Source: Mycolicibacterium aubagnense
GTDB lineage: Bacteria; Actinomycetota; Actinomycetes; Mycobacteriales; Mycobacteriaceae
Direction of reading: 5' to 3'
Length of the DNA stretch: 64,000 nucleotides
Assembly: GCF_010730955.1 (NCBI RefSeq)
Contig: NZ_AP022577.1
Coordinates: 2,232,001 to 2,296,000, forward strand
The notes beneath the pieces are model-generated. The model was given only the letters and a program-made list of their open reading frames with translations, was not told the origin of the DNA and did not search any database. The translations under genes were made by a program, and so were the position numbers. Below, in pieces: positions 28,971 to 33,409 of this stretch; position 1 is the first letter of the stretch, and each line of letters starts with the position of its first letter.

Positions 28971-29029
28971 ATGAGATCCCTTCCGCCAGCGCTCGCGCGC
29001 CATCTGCTGCCCTGCCTGTGGCTTGAGTC

Positions 29030-29035
29030 ACTGTA
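29030..29035 (-). promoter_or_regulatory. possible -10 element upstream of mkl
   Basis: TACAGT on the minus strand, a good TANNNT match, about 60 bases before the mkl start; no convincing -35. Tentative. Confidence 0.3.
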
Positions 29036-29178
29036 GCGCATCGATCGCGAGCCGATACACCTTGTTCCAACTATCGGACGGCCCGGCCAGAAGTCACTCT
29101 GATGGACACTGAGGCAACTACGCCATGGTCCCCGAAGGGGTCAGAAATGCCCCGATTTATAACCTCTGAAAAGCGAAA

Positions 29179-29209
29179 TCCCCCGGAGTCCGCAGTGGAC
29201 TCCGGGGGA
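29179..29209 (-). terminator. terminator of rplJ-rplL
   Basis: Perfect 13-bp stem (29179-29191 with 29197-29209), 5-base loop, then TTTCGCTTTTC on the minus strand, 21 bases after the rplL stop. Confidence 0.9.
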
Positions 29210-29229
29210 AAACGTCAGTTCTGGCGAAC

Positions 29230-29616
29230 TTACTTGACGGACACCGAAGCGCCGGCAGCCTCGAGCTTGGCCTTGGCGTCCTCGGCGGCCTCCTTCGAGA
29301 CCTTCTCCAGCAGCGGCTTGGGGGCGCCGTCGACCAGGTCCTTGGCTTCCTTCAGGCCCAGGCCGGAAACGATCTCGCGGACGACCTTGATGACGCCGAT
29401 CTTCTTGTCGCCGGCACCCTCGAGGATGACGTCGAACTCGGACTGCTCTTCAGCAGCCTCGGCGGGAGCAGCAGCGCCACCAACGGCGGCAACGGCGACC
29501 GGAGCAGCAGCGGTGACGTCGAAGGTCTCCTCGAACTGCTTCACGAACTCCGAGAGCTCCAGCAGGGTCATTTCCTTGAACGCGTCGAGCAGTTCTTCGG
29601 TGGACAGCTTGGCCAT
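29230..29616 (-). CDS. rplL: 50S ribosomal protein L7/L12
   Basis: 128 residues, stalk protein that recruits translation factors. N-terminal dimerisation helix ([24 protein letters not shown]), Ala/Val-rich hinge (about residues 34-58), C-terminal factor-binding domain ([33 protein letters not shown]). 45 bases after rplJ. Standard length. Confidence 0.99.
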
Positions 29617-29661
29617 GTGAATGGTCCTTCCTTAGTTCTTTATTAGTGGTTGTGGGGTGGG

Positions 29662-30192
29662 TCAGGCGGCCGAGTCTTCGGCGGCCTTCTTGTCCTGCAG
29701 AGCGGCCGCCAGGCGGGCAACCTGGGACGCGGGCGCAACGAACAGCGCCGCGGCCTGGGACTGCTTCGCCTTGAGGGCGCCGGCCAGCTTGGACAGCAGC
29801 ACTTCGCGCGACTCGAGGTCGGCGATCTTCTCGACCTGGGCCACGGACAGCGCAGCGCCGTCCATGTAGCCGCCCTTGATGACGAGCTGCTTGTGATCCT
29901 TCGCGAACTTCTTGAGTGCCTTCGCGGCATCGACCGGCTCGCCGGTGATGAACGCGATGGCGGTCGGACCTGCGAACAGGTCGTCGAGGCCTTCGATCCC
30001 GGCCTCCGAGGCGGCGCGCTTGACCAGGGTGTTCTTGGCGACCGTGTAGGTCGTCGAGGCACCAAGGGAGCGACGCAGCTCGGCGAGATTGGCAACCGTC
30101 AGACCGCGGTACTCGGTCACGACAGTGGCCGTCGAGGCCTTGAACTGTTCGGCGATGTCAGCGACCGCAGTGGCTTTATCAGCCGTGGCCAT
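29662..30192 (-). CDS. rplJ: 50S ribosomal protein L10
   Basis: 176 residues; binds 23S rRNA and carries L7/L12 dimers on its C-terminal helix ([22 protein letters not shown]). N-terminal [19 protein letters not shown] is typical. It ends with [11 protein letters not shown]. The start has AAGGAGG 6 bases upstream. The long leader upstream holds a terminator-like hairpin and probably binds L10(L12)4 for autogenous control. Confidence 0.98.
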
Positions 30193-30431
30193 ACATGCCT
30201 CCTTGTGGTGTATTCATCGGCCCACTGGAGACTGCCGGGGATTCGGCTTCGATCAAGGTCAGAAATGCAAAGCGCCCCGACACAGAAAGGTCGGGGCGCG
30301 CAGAATAAAAACTCTGAAAACCTCGTCCTCCTGCGTGGGCCGCCCGGAAAATCCGGAACCTTCAACCGATTTCCGAGCTACTTGCTCTTCGCGCAAGCGG
30401 CTCATCGGTGACCGACGGTCTTCGGTGGAAC
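30193..30431 (-). promoter_or_regulatory. rplJ leader, probable L10 autoregulatory RNA with attenuator hairpin
   Basis: The predicted transcript start (near 30431) gives a leader of about 240 bases. It has a GC-rich central part containing CCCACGCAGGAGGACGAGG (the GCAGGAG motif is often seen in L10 leaders), then a 10-bp perfect hairpin (30272-30281 with 30290-30299) followed by TTTGCATTT. A terminator-like hairpin between promoter and rplJ is the layout of an attenuated ribosomal leader. It could alternatively be a late terminator for the ATP-grasp gene. Confidence 0.55.
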
Positions 30432-30437
30432 TGGATC

Positions 30438-30467
30438 AGAGTAGCCGATGGCCTGCCGATCAGCCAA
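30438..30467 (-). promoter_or_regulatory. candidate SigA promoter of rplJ-rplL
   Basis: Minus strand TTGGCT (30462-30467), 18-base spacer, TACTCT (30438-30443). It lies just after the stop of the ATP-grasp gene, upstream of the leader hairpin. Confidence 0.45.
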
Positions 30468-30484
30468 AACGGCGACTCTGCGCA

Positions 30485-31381
30485 TCACGGCCGGCCGGGC
30501 CGAACCTCATCCGGCGCCGGCAGCTGCCACTGCCGGCCTTGCTCGAGGTCGAAGCTCATCGGTTGGTATCGCAGCATGCCGGTGCCCGGGTACGGGGTGT
30601 ACTCGCCGAACCAGACGTCGCCGTCGACGGCGTAGAGGTCGACGCGGACGAAGTCCCAGTCGGTGCCCAGCACGCTCGCGATCTCCAGCATCTTGTCCAG
30701 TTCGAGCGGCCGCTCCTCGACGGCGATCGGGTGGATGCGCCAGCGCACGGGCAACGGGCGCCAGTCGACGTCCAGGAAGGTGGTGGTCTGCTTCTTGTCG
30801 AAGCGGCCGCGGTTCACCTGGATCAGTTCGACCCGGCCACCAAAGACGAAGAACTTGTAGTCGACGGGCGGCCGGCCGTCCGGGGTGGGGATGCGTTCCT
30901 CGAGAAGGAGCAGTGGGCGGGCTTGGCTGTATCCCCACTCGCCGAGTTCCAGCGGCGTGCGCTCGAACCAGCGCTCGGTCCGGTTCCGCAGACTCTGCAG
31001 GTCGGTGTGCGCATCGGGGCCGAACAGCGCGTGCCCGCTGCTGTGGTTCGGTTTGAGGACCCACGGTGGCAGCGTCGTCAGCTCCGGGGCCTCCCGCAGG
31101 TCGGTACCGGACCAGTACGTGGCGGGGATGCGCAGATTGGCGCCCGGATAGGCCGCGCGGGCCATCTCCTTCATCCACATCTTGTCGCAGGCCTTGACGA
31201 TCCGGTCCCGCCGATCGTTGAAGATGCGCCAGTTCACCTTCTCGTTGAAGGTCGCCGGCTCGCTGAAGTTGCCCCATCGCCGGATCATGAAGAGATAGAG
31301 CATCTTCCGCATCACCAGCAGTGGGATCAGCGCGACGAGGCGGCGGCGTACGGCGGCCGACCACTTGTCCAGCCGCATCAC
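30485..31381 (-). CDS. TupA-like ATP-grasp amidoligase
   Basis: 298 residues, ATP-grasp ligase of the TupA/teichuronopeptide type. Basic, hydrophobic N-terminus (RRRLVALIPLLVMRKMLYLF) could touch the membrane. ATP-grasp motifs: WVLKPNHSSGHALF (phosphate loop), VDYKFFVFGGRVELIQVNRGR (lysine and base-binding strand), VRVDLYAVDGDVWFGEYTPYPGTG (metal-binding D and E). Such enzymes form amide bonds, often between an amino acid or peptide and a sugar polymer. Its ATG overlaps the stop of the formyltransferase (ATGA), so the two are cotranscribed behind an iron box. The substrate is unknown; a link to siderophore or cell-wall polysaccharide modification is inference. Confidence 0.8.
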   Translation of the reverse strand: MMRLDKWSAAVRRRLVALIPLLVMRKMLYLFMIRRWGNFSEPATFNEKVNWRIFNDRRDRIVKACDKMWMKEMARAAYPGANLRIPATYWSGTDLREAPELTTLPPWVLKPNHSSGHALFGPDAHTDLQSLRNRTERWFERTPLELGEWGYSQARPLLLLEERIPTPDGRPPVDYKFFVFGGRVELIQVNRGRFDKKQTTTFLDVDWRPLPVRWRIHPIAVEERPLELDKMLEIASVLGTDWDFVRVDLYAVDGDVWFGEYTPYPGTGMLRYQPMSFDLEQGRQWQLPAPDEVRPGRP

Positions 31382-32334
31382 ATCGCCCCGTCGAGTTCGG
31401 CCACACTGGTCAGGTAGCCGCCACGGCGGAAGAATGCGTCTCCGGCGTGTTCGGCACCGTCGGCCGTGCGTACGCGGGTGATCACCAGCGCCCGGTTCTG
31501 GCCGCGGTGCGCGCCCGGTCCGGACACCACGGCACCGCCGCCTTCCTGCACGATCACTCGGCCGGGCGATCCGCCGTACCGGATTTCGGAGACCTTGGAT
31601 TCGAGCACCTCGATCCGTTCACCGCGGTAGAAGGTGAACGCGCGCGGGTAGGGGTCCGAGAGCGCGCGGACGAGCCGTTCCAGGTCCTCCGCAGGCCAGC
31701 TCCAGTCGATCAGGCTGTCGCGCACGGAACGCTTGTGGAAGTAGGTCCGCTCCGACTTTTCTTGCGGCCGCCATTGCGCGGTACCCGTTTCCAGCGCGGT
31801 GAGCGCTTCGTCCAGTGCGCCCGGGATGAGGTCGATGCCGCGCATCACCAGCTCGGTGCCCGTGTCGGCGGGACCGATGGGCAGCGAGTGCTGGACCAGG
31901 ATGTCGCCGGCGTCGAGTTCGGAGTTCATGCGGTGGATGGTCAGCCCGATCTCGGATTCACCGCTGATCAGCGACCACAACACCGGCGAGAAACCGGTGC
32001 TCTTCGGCAGTAGGGAGTCGTGCATGTTCAGCGTCCCGTACGGCGGCAGGTCGTACAGCTCCTCCGTCATGCGCGTGTACCAGCTGTTGACGACGATGAC
32101 GTCGGGCTCTGATCGCTTGACCACGTCGATGGTCTCGTGGTCGGCCCGCATGGTCAGGTGGACCGGGATGCCGTGCGCCCGGGCGAGTTCCTCGACCGAA
32201 TCCGAGAAGATCGCCTTGTACGACTCCGTGCTGGTCGGATGCGTGACCACCATCGGCACGTCGTGTCCCAGATCGAGCAGCGCCTGCAGCGTCTTGACCC
32301 CCCACGTCTGGAAACCGAAGAAGACGACGCGCAT
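31378..32334 (-). CDS. FxbA-type N10-formyltetrahydrofolate-dependent formyltransferase
   Basis: 318 residues. Formyltransferase Rossmann domain with catalytic triad Asn103 and His105 (TLNMHDSLLP) and Asp141 (SELDAGDIL), then a C-terminal OB-like domain. The N-terminus MRVVFFGFQTWGVKTLQALL and the segment STGFSPVLWSLISGE differ from methionyl-tRNA formyltransferase and resemble FxbA, the hydroxyornithine formyltransferase of exochelin synthesis in M. smegmatis, as I remember it. An iron box lies 72 bases upstream. It is coupled to the ATP-grasp ligase and there is no peptide synthetase in the window, so the role may be siderophore-related elsewhere on the chromosome or sugar N-formylation. 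Confidence 0.8.
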   Translation of the reverse strand: MRVVFFGFQTWGVKTLQALLDLGHDVPMVVTHPTSTESYKAIFSDSVEELARAHGIPVHLTMRADHETIDVVKRSEPDVIVVNSWYTRMTEELYDLPPYGTLNMHDSLLPKSTGFSPVLWSLISGESEIGLTIHRMNSELDAGDILVQHSLPIGPADTGTELVMRGIDLIPGALDEALTALETGTAQWRPQEKSERTYFHKRSVRDSLIDWSWPAEDLERLVRALSDPYPRAFTFYRGERIEVLESKVSEIRYGGSPGRVIVQEGGGAVVSGPGAHRGQNRALVITRVRTADGAEHAGDAFFRRGGYLTSVAELDGAM

Positions 32335-32405
32335 GCCAAAACCTCACTAAGTCTGATTCTGCTGTCGATCGGAGCGATGTTCGCCGACCGGTTATCACAA
32401 TCAAC

Positions 32406-32424
32406 TTAGCTAAGTCTTACCTAA
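32406..32424. promoter_or_regulatory. IdeR iron box upstream of the formyltransferase operon
   Basis: TTAGCTAAGTCTTACCTAA matches 15 of 19 positions of the mycobacterial IdeR consensus TTAGGTTAGGCTAACCTAA. It is 72 bases upstream of the formyltransferase start and just downstream of the DUF1772 stop, so it should repress the formyltransferase/ATP-grasp operon when iron is plentiful. Confidence 0.7.
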
Positions 32425-32461
32425 ATTTGTGATCTACCTGTGAACGCGGGCCCGGGCCACG

Positions 32462-32899
32462 TCATCCGGCTAGCGCCACCACGACAAACACCGCGACCAG
32501 TACCGCAACCCGCAGCCAGTGCAGGTGGTCCCAGCGGCGGGCCAGTTCCCGACTGGTCGGCGCCTCGTCGGGACCGGCGCCCGCCCACGCCGCGACCCGG
32601 TTGTTGATCGGAACCAGCGCAGTCAGCGACAGGACCATCACCACGGCCATCAACACCACCGCGGCGATGGCGAGTGGCGCCGGCGCGAGTACCGCATCGA
32701 CGACCAGCAGCGCCGCCGCGGTGGCGTACCAGAACGGCATCACCGCGCCGAGGATCCGACTGCCGGCGGCACGCGCCTGGCGGTAGGCGTCGTCGGGCAG
32801 CTGTTCCAGAACCGGATTGGTGAATGCGGCGACGCCGAACTCGACGCCGACGAGCGTGCCGACGACGATCACCGTGAGAATCTGCGCAAGACGTTCCAT
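32462..32899 (-). CDS. DUF1772 membrane protein
   Basis: 145 residues from ATG 32899 (a longer frame to 32935 would run into the operator). Four hydrophobic helices and the family pattern: NPVLEQLPDDAYRQA, VPINNRVAAWAG, RWDHLHWLRV. DUF1772 proteins include anthrone-oxygenase-like members and are often small redox-linked membrane proteins; function here unknown. Divergent from an HxlR regulator that probably controls it through the palindrome at 32937-32958. Confidence 0.8.
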   Translation of the reverse strand: MERLAQILTVIVVGTLVGVEFGVAAFTNPVLEQLPDDAYRQARAAGSRILGAVMPFWYATAAALLVVDAVLAPAPLAIAAVVLMAVVMVLSLTALVPINNRVAAWAGAGPDEAPTSRELARRWDHLHWLRVAVLVAVFVVVALAG

Positions 32900-32936
32900 G
32901 GCATCGAGCCTGGTCACTATGCTGCCAAATAACAAG

Positions 32937-32958
32937 GTACTGACAAATTAGTCAGTAC
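32937..32958. promoter_or_regulatory. HxlR operator between DUF1772 and HxlR genes
   Basis: Perfect inverted repeat GTACTGAC-N6-GTCAGTAC in the 81-base divergent spacer. HxlR/DUF24 regulators typically bind such AC-GT palindromes with a 6-7 base centre. It would control both genes. Confidence 0.75.
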
Positions 32959-32980
32959 GTGAGCCAGTAGGAGCCCGGTC

Positions 32981-33409
32981 ATGGCGGTATCGAAGAAGGA
33001 GATCGGCGAGTGCCCCATCGACGCGGCGCTGTCCGTGGTCGACGGCCGCTGGAAAGGCACCATCCTGTGGCGACTCGCGGACGGGCCGATGCGCACCGCG
33101 GAGCTTCGCCGGAGCATTCCCGAGATCACGGAGCGCATGCTCATCCGCCATCTGCATGAACTGGTGGCCGACGGCATCATCGAACGCCACGACGCGGGCA
33201 CGGTGCCGCCGCGCGTGCACTATTCGATCTCCGAGTACGGCAAGACGCTGGGACCGGTGCTCGGCGCGCTGTGCGACTGGGGCCGAAAGGACATGGCGCG
33301 CCGCGCCGCTCAGGACCGCCACAACGCGGCGGCACCCACCAGTCCGGCGTCACCGCCGAGTTCGGCCGGCACCACCCGCAGGCCGCGCAGGAAACTCAAT
33401 CCGGCGTAG
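32981..33409 (+). CDS. HxlR/DUF24-family regulator
   Basis: 142-residue winged-helix regulator: CPIDAALSVVDGRWKGTILWRL, RTAELRRSIPEITERMLIRHLHELVADGIIERH, VHYSISEYGKTLGPVL. The conserved Cys11 near the N-terminus is the redox-sensing residue in several family members. The HxlR fold ends near residue 115; the last 30 residues are Pro/Thr/Arg-rich and antisense to the 3' end of the ROK kinase gene (100-base overlap). The tail is probably an unstructured read-on, not a second domain. Confidence 0.88.
   Translation: MAVSKKEIGECPIDAALSVVDGRWKGTILWRLADGPMRTAELRRSIPEITERMLIRHLHELVADGIIERHDAGTVPPRVHYSISEYGKTLGPVLGALCDWGRKDMARRAAQDRHNAAAPTSPASPPSSAGTTRRPRRKLNPA

Follow-up and report, generated by a model that had tools for sequence, protein, structure and literature searches.

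A formyltransferase (FT) and a TupA-like ATP-grasp amide ligase (TUP), encoded side by side in the DNA analyzed here, form a recurrent mycobacterial module that is a unit across the genus. Gene content indicates that the ATP-grasp ligase takes the place of a nonribosomal peptide synthetase (NRPS) next to a hydroxamate-type formyltransferase within this module. In many mycobacteria, FT appears to have been kept, the peptide-making machine lost and a small ligase gained, hinting at an undescribed, iron-controlled use of the building block. The mycobacterial siderophores known to us (mycobactin, carboxymycobactin, and exochelin) all come from polyketide synthase (PKS)/NRPS lines; if our reading is correct, a lineage-wide swap of such a line for one ATP-grasp ligase, with FT kept, would constitute a new use of a hydroxamate building block.

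We tentatively favor, at somewhat less than an even chance, a reading in which TUP, with no synthetase, ligates a hydroxamate amino acid that FT has made. The two enzymes would make up a module that usually has an iron box. FT, with 10-formyl-tetrahydrofolate as the donor, would formylate a diamino acid on its side-chain nitrogen. This acid is most likely N6-hydroxylysine, for which MbtG is a possible source, and the product would be an N-formyl-N-hydroxy amino acid, a hydroxamate. With ATP, TUP would convert a carboxylate to an acyl phosphate and then form an amide bond between this residue and a partner, thereby standing in for the peptide synthetase to which this building block goes in sister lineages. 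In this scheme we infer the substrate, the order of the steps, the acceptor (an amino acid or a surface glycolipid), and the product and its binding of iron.

The FT-TUP locus and its predicted iron box

The stretch of DNA analyzed (the window, 64 kb) is part of a 6.3-Mb genome (G000). FT (positions 31378–32334, minus strand) is 318 amino acids in length, has an ATG start, and is assigned as a TerH-type N-formyltransferase from profile matches, tree, and alignment. TUP (30485–31381, minus strand) is 298 amino acids in length with a GTG start, or begins at an ATG at 31378. The preliminary description had called the two genes coupled through an ATGA junction. The coupling is borne out, but the junction is not: the overlap is GTGA with the GTG start or a one-base TGATG with the ATG start. 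The pair is flanked by a PF08592 gene and by the gene for ribosomal protein L10 (PF00466), in agreement with its reported position beside ribosomal genes. A terminator-like hairpin of 10 pairs, which is a consensus match only, is located in the interval between TUP and the L10 gene (30272–30299, minus strand); the hairpin scan gave 2 such sites in 2.5 kb versus a mean of 1.0 in shuffles. No Rfam match occurs in 29000–33000. The window has no match to NRPS, NbtB/C-type, or MbtG proteins closer than 9 kb to FT, so the gene is not in a nocobactin-type cluster. The combination of a formyltransferase with an ATP-grasp enzyme is indeed unusual, and we recognized no description of an FT-TUP-like pair, or of formylated mycobactins in mycobacteria, in the CC-licensed PMC literature.

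The analysis confirmed both this gene arrangement and the iron box before it. The predicted IdeR-type box, TTAGGTAAGACTTAGCTAA (32406–32424, minus strand), is located 71 bp before the FT start and matches 15 of the 19 positions of the IdeR consensus. It is the only site in the window with at least 14/19 matches, and no site there has three or fewer mismatches to the consensus. As a control, 77 upstream regions (Streptomyces-type included) were each shuffled 40 times; 5 of the 3080 Markov-shuffled regions reached at least 14/19, one of these with 15. Thirty-six loci were compared, the window and those 35 of L025–L061 in which the FT match starts at residue 1, and 35 of the 36, all but L040, have a site of at least 14/19 ahead of FT. 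The distance between box and FT is 64–102 bp in 33 loci and 16 and 27 bp in two Nocardia loci. A conserved predicted IdeR box thus lies upstream of FT, as would be expected of a member of the IdeR regulon. For comparison, a putative IdeR site in the exochelin region of M. smegmatis, similar to the known site before fxbA, fits 13/19 (PMC2170428).

Genome-wide, a box of at least 14/19 precedes FT in 24 of the 31 genomes with TUP and precedes 46 of the 48 measurable FT copies in genomes without TUP, where two more copies lie at contig ends. The sites upstream of FT in the other seven TUP genomes have 9–11/19 matches. These seven are all five genomes with the pair between bioB and nadA, G014, and G158 (FT match without the first residues). 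Because the box is missing in 7/31 TUP genomes, iron control is not universal, which counts against our preferred reading. Stand-alone TUP copies have 13/19 at best.

FT, TUP, and synthetases across the genus

The preliminary description had proposed a search of genomes for the two-gene neighborhood. Among 396 genomes of the genus, TUP (called at ≥65% identity) occurs in 31, and FT1, the formyltransferase type to which FT belongs, is present in 31/31 of these. FT1 occurs in 80 genomes, 49 of them without TUP (a 91-residue FT1 fragment in G031 was under threshold and is left out of the counts). The Fisher value for the co-occurrence of FT1 and TUP is 1e-24, with genomes taken as independent of descent. 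FT1 is found in 0/23 genomes that have only distant (40–48%) TupA relatives, and FT2, a second formyltransferase type, in 10/23. FT and TUP are adjacent in 22 of the 31 TUP genomes (18 on the same strand, 4 divergent) and unlinked in 9, and the adjacent pairs occupy about nine chromosomal sites, as judged from flanking genes read by eye. The two are fused in G267 (L192, 9298–10938), where FT residues 1–225 and TUP form one 546-amino acid frame without the FT C-terminal domain. The TUP and FT trees are concordant in their main splits, with the exception of G348.

Several of these loci have features of their own. The FT of G348 (L196) is very near that of G295, yet its TUP branches deep, and replacement of the ligase in this genome is possible. 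The bioB-nadA site (L193–L196 and L204) holds the pair in five genomes, without an iron box. An FT2 copy is present as well in G348, G435, and G439, and FT2 is near NRPS genes in L209 and L210. In L031 (8517–13244), the FT-TUP pair is flanked by two MFS-type transporter genes.

TUP and a neighboring synthetase are close to mutually exclusive. Among FT1 genomes without TUP, 48/49 have an NRPS match that is no more than 1.7 kb from FT and on its strand, whereas the same holds for only 1/31 TUP genomes (Fisher 1e-19, common descent ignored). The one without an NRPS match is G281; in G154, the second FT copy likewise has none. Six other TUP genomes have weaker NRPS hits (27–32%) at 3.75–5.5 kb from FT. 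The single TUP genome with a close synthetase is G263, M. deserti, in which FT and a nocobactin-type cluster lie beside the suf operon and TUP lies elsewhere, in a glycolipid-type locus. That M. deserti has TUP and a synthetase together argues against our preferred reading. In a sister lineage (G313, G317, and G366), FT and TUP lie beside the suf operon (SufS and SufB confirmed in L202) with no synthetase match, and this exchange of a synthetase cluster for TUP looks like a swap in place. The AU test does not reject the grouping of every FT from a TUP genome in one clade (p 0.446), and the tree has two changes; one or two ancestral events could underlie the TUP set.

Affiliation of the formyltransferase

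FT matches both formyltransferase domains, PF00551 (Formyl_trans_N, 95.3 bits) and PF02911 (Formyl_trans_C, 59.1 bits). The catalytic residues N103, H105, and D141, noted earlier for FT, are kept in every row counted in the alignment, that is, 31/31 rows from TUP genomes, 50 NRPS-linked rows, and 8 FT2 or Streptomyces-type rows (2 further FT1 rows left out). A plain methionyl-tRNA formyltransferase (Fmt), the identity that the preliminary description had set against its own proposal, was rejected: FT scores 161 bits against TIGR00460, below the 201.5 cut-off, and the genome has its own Fmt. Besides FT, the genome has three PF00551 genes, which encode PurN, PurU, and Fmt, and the separate Fmt in L003 scores 194 bits to TIGR00460, though the gene caller cut its start. 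Database entries named 'methionyl-tRNA formyltransferase' thus include a group of enzymes that is here marked as non-Fmt. The closest named relatives of FT are in Mycolicibacterium strains, M. llatzerense among them, and public records call its relatives methionyl-tRNA formyltransferase, ArnA, or putative formyltransferase.

In a 91-protein tree (83 FT1, of which 81 are from the genus and 2 from Nocardia; 3 FT2; 5 Streptomyces-type; no housekeeping Fmt row), the 83 FT1 rows are on one side at 100/100 and the FT2 and Streptomyces-type rows on the other. FT2 copies occur in 33 genomes at 54–61% identity, and the three placed on the tree fall outside FT1 at 100/100. The one FT2 locus annotated, L210, fits exochelin synthesis: it encodes a siderophore-interacting protein, FecCD importers, ABC exporters, and an NRPS. 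The earlier FxbA-type label for FT does not hold, as FT is outside the FT2 clade, whose annotated member adjoins exochelin-like genes; the FxbA side is known here through FT2 context. FxbA identity was rejected on the tree and this context (three FT2 rows, one annotated locus). The FxbA/CchA-type hydroxyornithine formyltransferases (the FT2 and Streptomyces-type rows) share family and active site with FT, and their loci also have box-like sites, but FT is on a separate side of the tree and differs at eight positions, where the FT1 residue is missing from all 8 FT2 and Streptomyces-type rows (e.g., K40/E, S84/N, and Y86/R).

The same placement makes it very improbable that FT belongs to exochelin synthesis as an FxbA-type enzyme and works with an NRPS encoded at another place in the genome. 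Such an NRPS could be sought in a 10,432-residue frame with condensation domains at ~2.93–2.96 Mb of the genome, and the PvdA-type monooxygenase at 4.246 Mb would also suit this explanation. A strong match to PF13434 is, however, absent from the FT-TUP genomes of L031, L040, L057, and L059.

FT is better called TerH-type than FxbA-type, as it groups on the tree with formyltransferases of nocobactin-type clusters, and this clade is the basis of the label. TerH is a candidate N-formyltransferase for the N-formyl-N-hydroxylysine of nocobactins and is exclusive with the acetyltransferase NbtH, according to PMC7413640. Like the TerH-type enzymes of nocobactin-like clusters (formobactin, brasilibactin, amamistatins, and terpenibactins), FT has the catalytic residues and shares a clade with cluster formyltransferases of Nocardia and mycobacteria. 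Unlike those clusters, 30/31 TUP genomes have no synthetase match within 1.7 kb of FT; an ATP-grasp ligase is encoded instead, and in 22 of the 31 it is adjacent to FT. In genomes without TUP, 18 FT1 copies are near NbtB/NbtC-type PKS genes and the remaining NRPS-linked copies adjoin another NRPS type. Of the PKSs that neighbor FT1 copies, the one in L041 was tested; it is an NbtC equivalog (1419 bits, cut-off 1150), with an MbtD score of 711 that is under the cut-off of that model. No position is fixed differently between the FTs of TUP genomes and the NRPS-linked FTs in the alignment, and the acceptor amino acid is therefore probably the same for both.

The ligase, its possible acceptors, and the hydroxylase background

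The preliminary description had paired FT with an ATP-grasp enzyme, and this is supported by both profile and fold. TUP matches PF14305 (TupA-like ATP-grasp) with 89.3 bits (cut-off 25), and its AlphaFold2 model (pLDDT 92.3) has an ATP-grasp fold. The nearest matches of the model are D-Ala-D-Ala ligases, and LysX, RimK, and the L-amino acid ligases BacD/YwfE and RizA match as well. TUP shares a fold with these enzymes but only ~10–20% identity, and a sequence search of the PDB gave no match up to E = 1. K110, E161, D248, and E260 are invariant in 30 sequences and, by analogy with ATP-grasp enzymes, are candidate ATP/Mg residues.

These fold neighbors, along with the either/or relation of TUP to NRPSs and the predicted iron box, are consistent with an NRPS-free soluble siderophore. 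TUP would act like an L-amino acid ligase and build a small, secreted hydroxamate from at least two N-formyl-N-hydroxylysine (or -ornithine) residues or from one of these and a different amine. We consider this product unlikely: no transporter is common to the sites of the pair (by eye; L031 has the two flanking MFS genes), and a dedicated hydroxylase occurs only in the group of the window, with its gene far off. An ATP-grasp enzyme, KasC, is encoded in the kasichelin siderophore cluster, and the authors of PMC12305651 only speculate on its role. Compared by description only, KasC is like TUP in being an ATP-grasp enzyme beside hydroxamate siderophore genes and unlike it in belonging to an NRPS cluster.

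TupA (teichuronopeptide) and TupA-like surface-polymer ligases have PF14305 and the ATP-grasp fold in common with TUP. The distant TupA relatives in the genus align with TUP at 40–48% over part of its length and are not found with FT1. G074 has three such relatives (43–45%), one among sugar-transferase, Wzz, and glycosyltransferase genes and two beside glycogen/trehalose-type genes.

TUP itself occurs in glycolipid-type loci in two genomes. PapA-like, IleS, and lipooligosaccharide-type labels were given by eye. In G293 the pair is surrounded by genes for MmpL, a fatty-acid-AMP ligase, UDP-glucose dehydrogenase, an ABC-2 exporter, glycosyltransferases, and an FkbM methyltransferase, and we read this locus as lipooligosaccharide or acyltrehalose type. 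In G263 a lone TUP is in a locus with MmpL, AMP ligase, methyltransferase, and PapA-like genes. The core of such a locus (PapA-like, UGT, and MmpL) is also present in the genome of the window, 1.87 Mb away from the pair. Pfam scans of PapA-like proteins covered three in one scan (two with no match, one with a condensation domain) and a fourth with no match. A glycosyltransferase adjoins the pair in G014, G293, and G397; it occurs in 9/31 TUP genomes and 29/365 others, and not in the genome of the window. The MmpL query has 54–100% identity in 30/31 TUP genomes (none in the incomplete G364) and ≤52% in the other 49. The glycolipid locus (MmpL) was rejected as a marker of TUP, as this identity falls gradually and may just follow species relatedness. 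The distance between TUP and MmpL (30 genomes) is less than 50 kb in 17, many of these at one inherited site; it is far in 6, and 7 were not placed.

The context of TUP in G293 and G263 suggests a glycolipid acceptor and gives some support to the earlier idea of a surface molecule. In a surface-anchored form of our preferred reading, TUP would amidate the uronic acid of a glycolipid with FT-made N-formyl-N-hydroxylysine, such that low iron would bring hydroxamate ligands to the cell surface. This form is put forward because the distant relatives of TUP include polysaccharide-cluster members and because two separate FT/TUP lineages, those of G293 and G263, have TUP within a glycolipid-type locus; we regard it as distinctly unlikely.

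Still less probable is sugar chemistry, in which FT would formylate an amino sugar, TUP would amidate the uronic acid of a surface glycan or glycolipid, and the siderophore ancestry of FT would be only history. The best solved relative of FT by sequence is the ArnA sugar formyltransferase, which fits this explanation, as do the G293 locus with its UDP-glucose dehydrogenase, glycosyltransferases, and ABC-2 exporter and the G074 relative of TUP among sugar-transferase, Wzz, and glycosyltransferase genes. The match to NCBIfam ArnA is, however, family-level only (181.5 bits, cut-off 777), and both the lack of fixed residue differences from NRPS-linked FTs and the box in 24/31 TUP genomes weigh against it.

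As the substrate of FT in our preferred reading, N6-hydroxylysine is plausible, because PMC7347517 gives the M. smegmatis protein MbsG as a lysine hydroxylase. MbtG has exactly one match in 30/31 TUP genomes (G364 is 58% complete); a second MbtG as the hydroxylase of the pair was rejected, as none exists in the 31. The genomes of L031, L040, L057, and L059 have no strong PF13434 match. The group of the window also has a PvdA-type monooxygenase elsewhere in the genome; the gene at 4.246 Mb was rejected as the hydroxylase of the pair, as it overlaps an OlsB-like acyltransferase gene beside an MFS gene (by eye) and the surrounding 60 kb has no box of at least 14/19. That no dedicated hydroxylase is seen counts against our preferred reading. 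So does the MbtK-type PF13523 gene, which is kept in 20/20 TUP genomes searched; loss of MbtK as a sign of replacement was rejected on this result.

The single MbtG and the lysine hydroxylase listing of MbsG would also suit a formylated mycobactin, as would the TerH-type affiliation of FT (tree; PMC7413640). FT would feed formyl-hydroxylysine in trans to the ordinary mycobactin line, and TUP would have a separate, loosely related job. This arrangement is improbable, to the same degree as the surface-anchored form: it leaves unexplained the presence of FT in 31/31 TUP genomes, the linkage at many sites, and the G267 fusion, and it is at odds with the retained MbtK-type gene.

Among eight genomes with FT in a nocobactin-type cluster, the MbtK-type PF13523 gene is absent in G023 and G126, weak in G029, and present in five. 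Because no clear MbtK-type acyltransferase is found in G023, G029, and G126, FT is likely the acyl-group enzyme there, and these genomes are candidates for formylated nocobactin-like siderophores.

Two further observations concern the genome of the window. The PvdA-type N-monooxygenase gene and the OlsB-like ornithine acyltransferase gene overlap at G000:C1:4245515–4247591 (L125), which may point to a hydroxylated ornithine lipid; in NCBIfam, the top match for this monooxygenase is the histamine N-monooxygenase model, under cut-off. The 10,432-residue frame (G000:C1, ~2930672–2959516) is a single open frame with many condensation domains, and like frames of 10,317–10,337 residues occur in the relatives G100, G102, G103, and G111.
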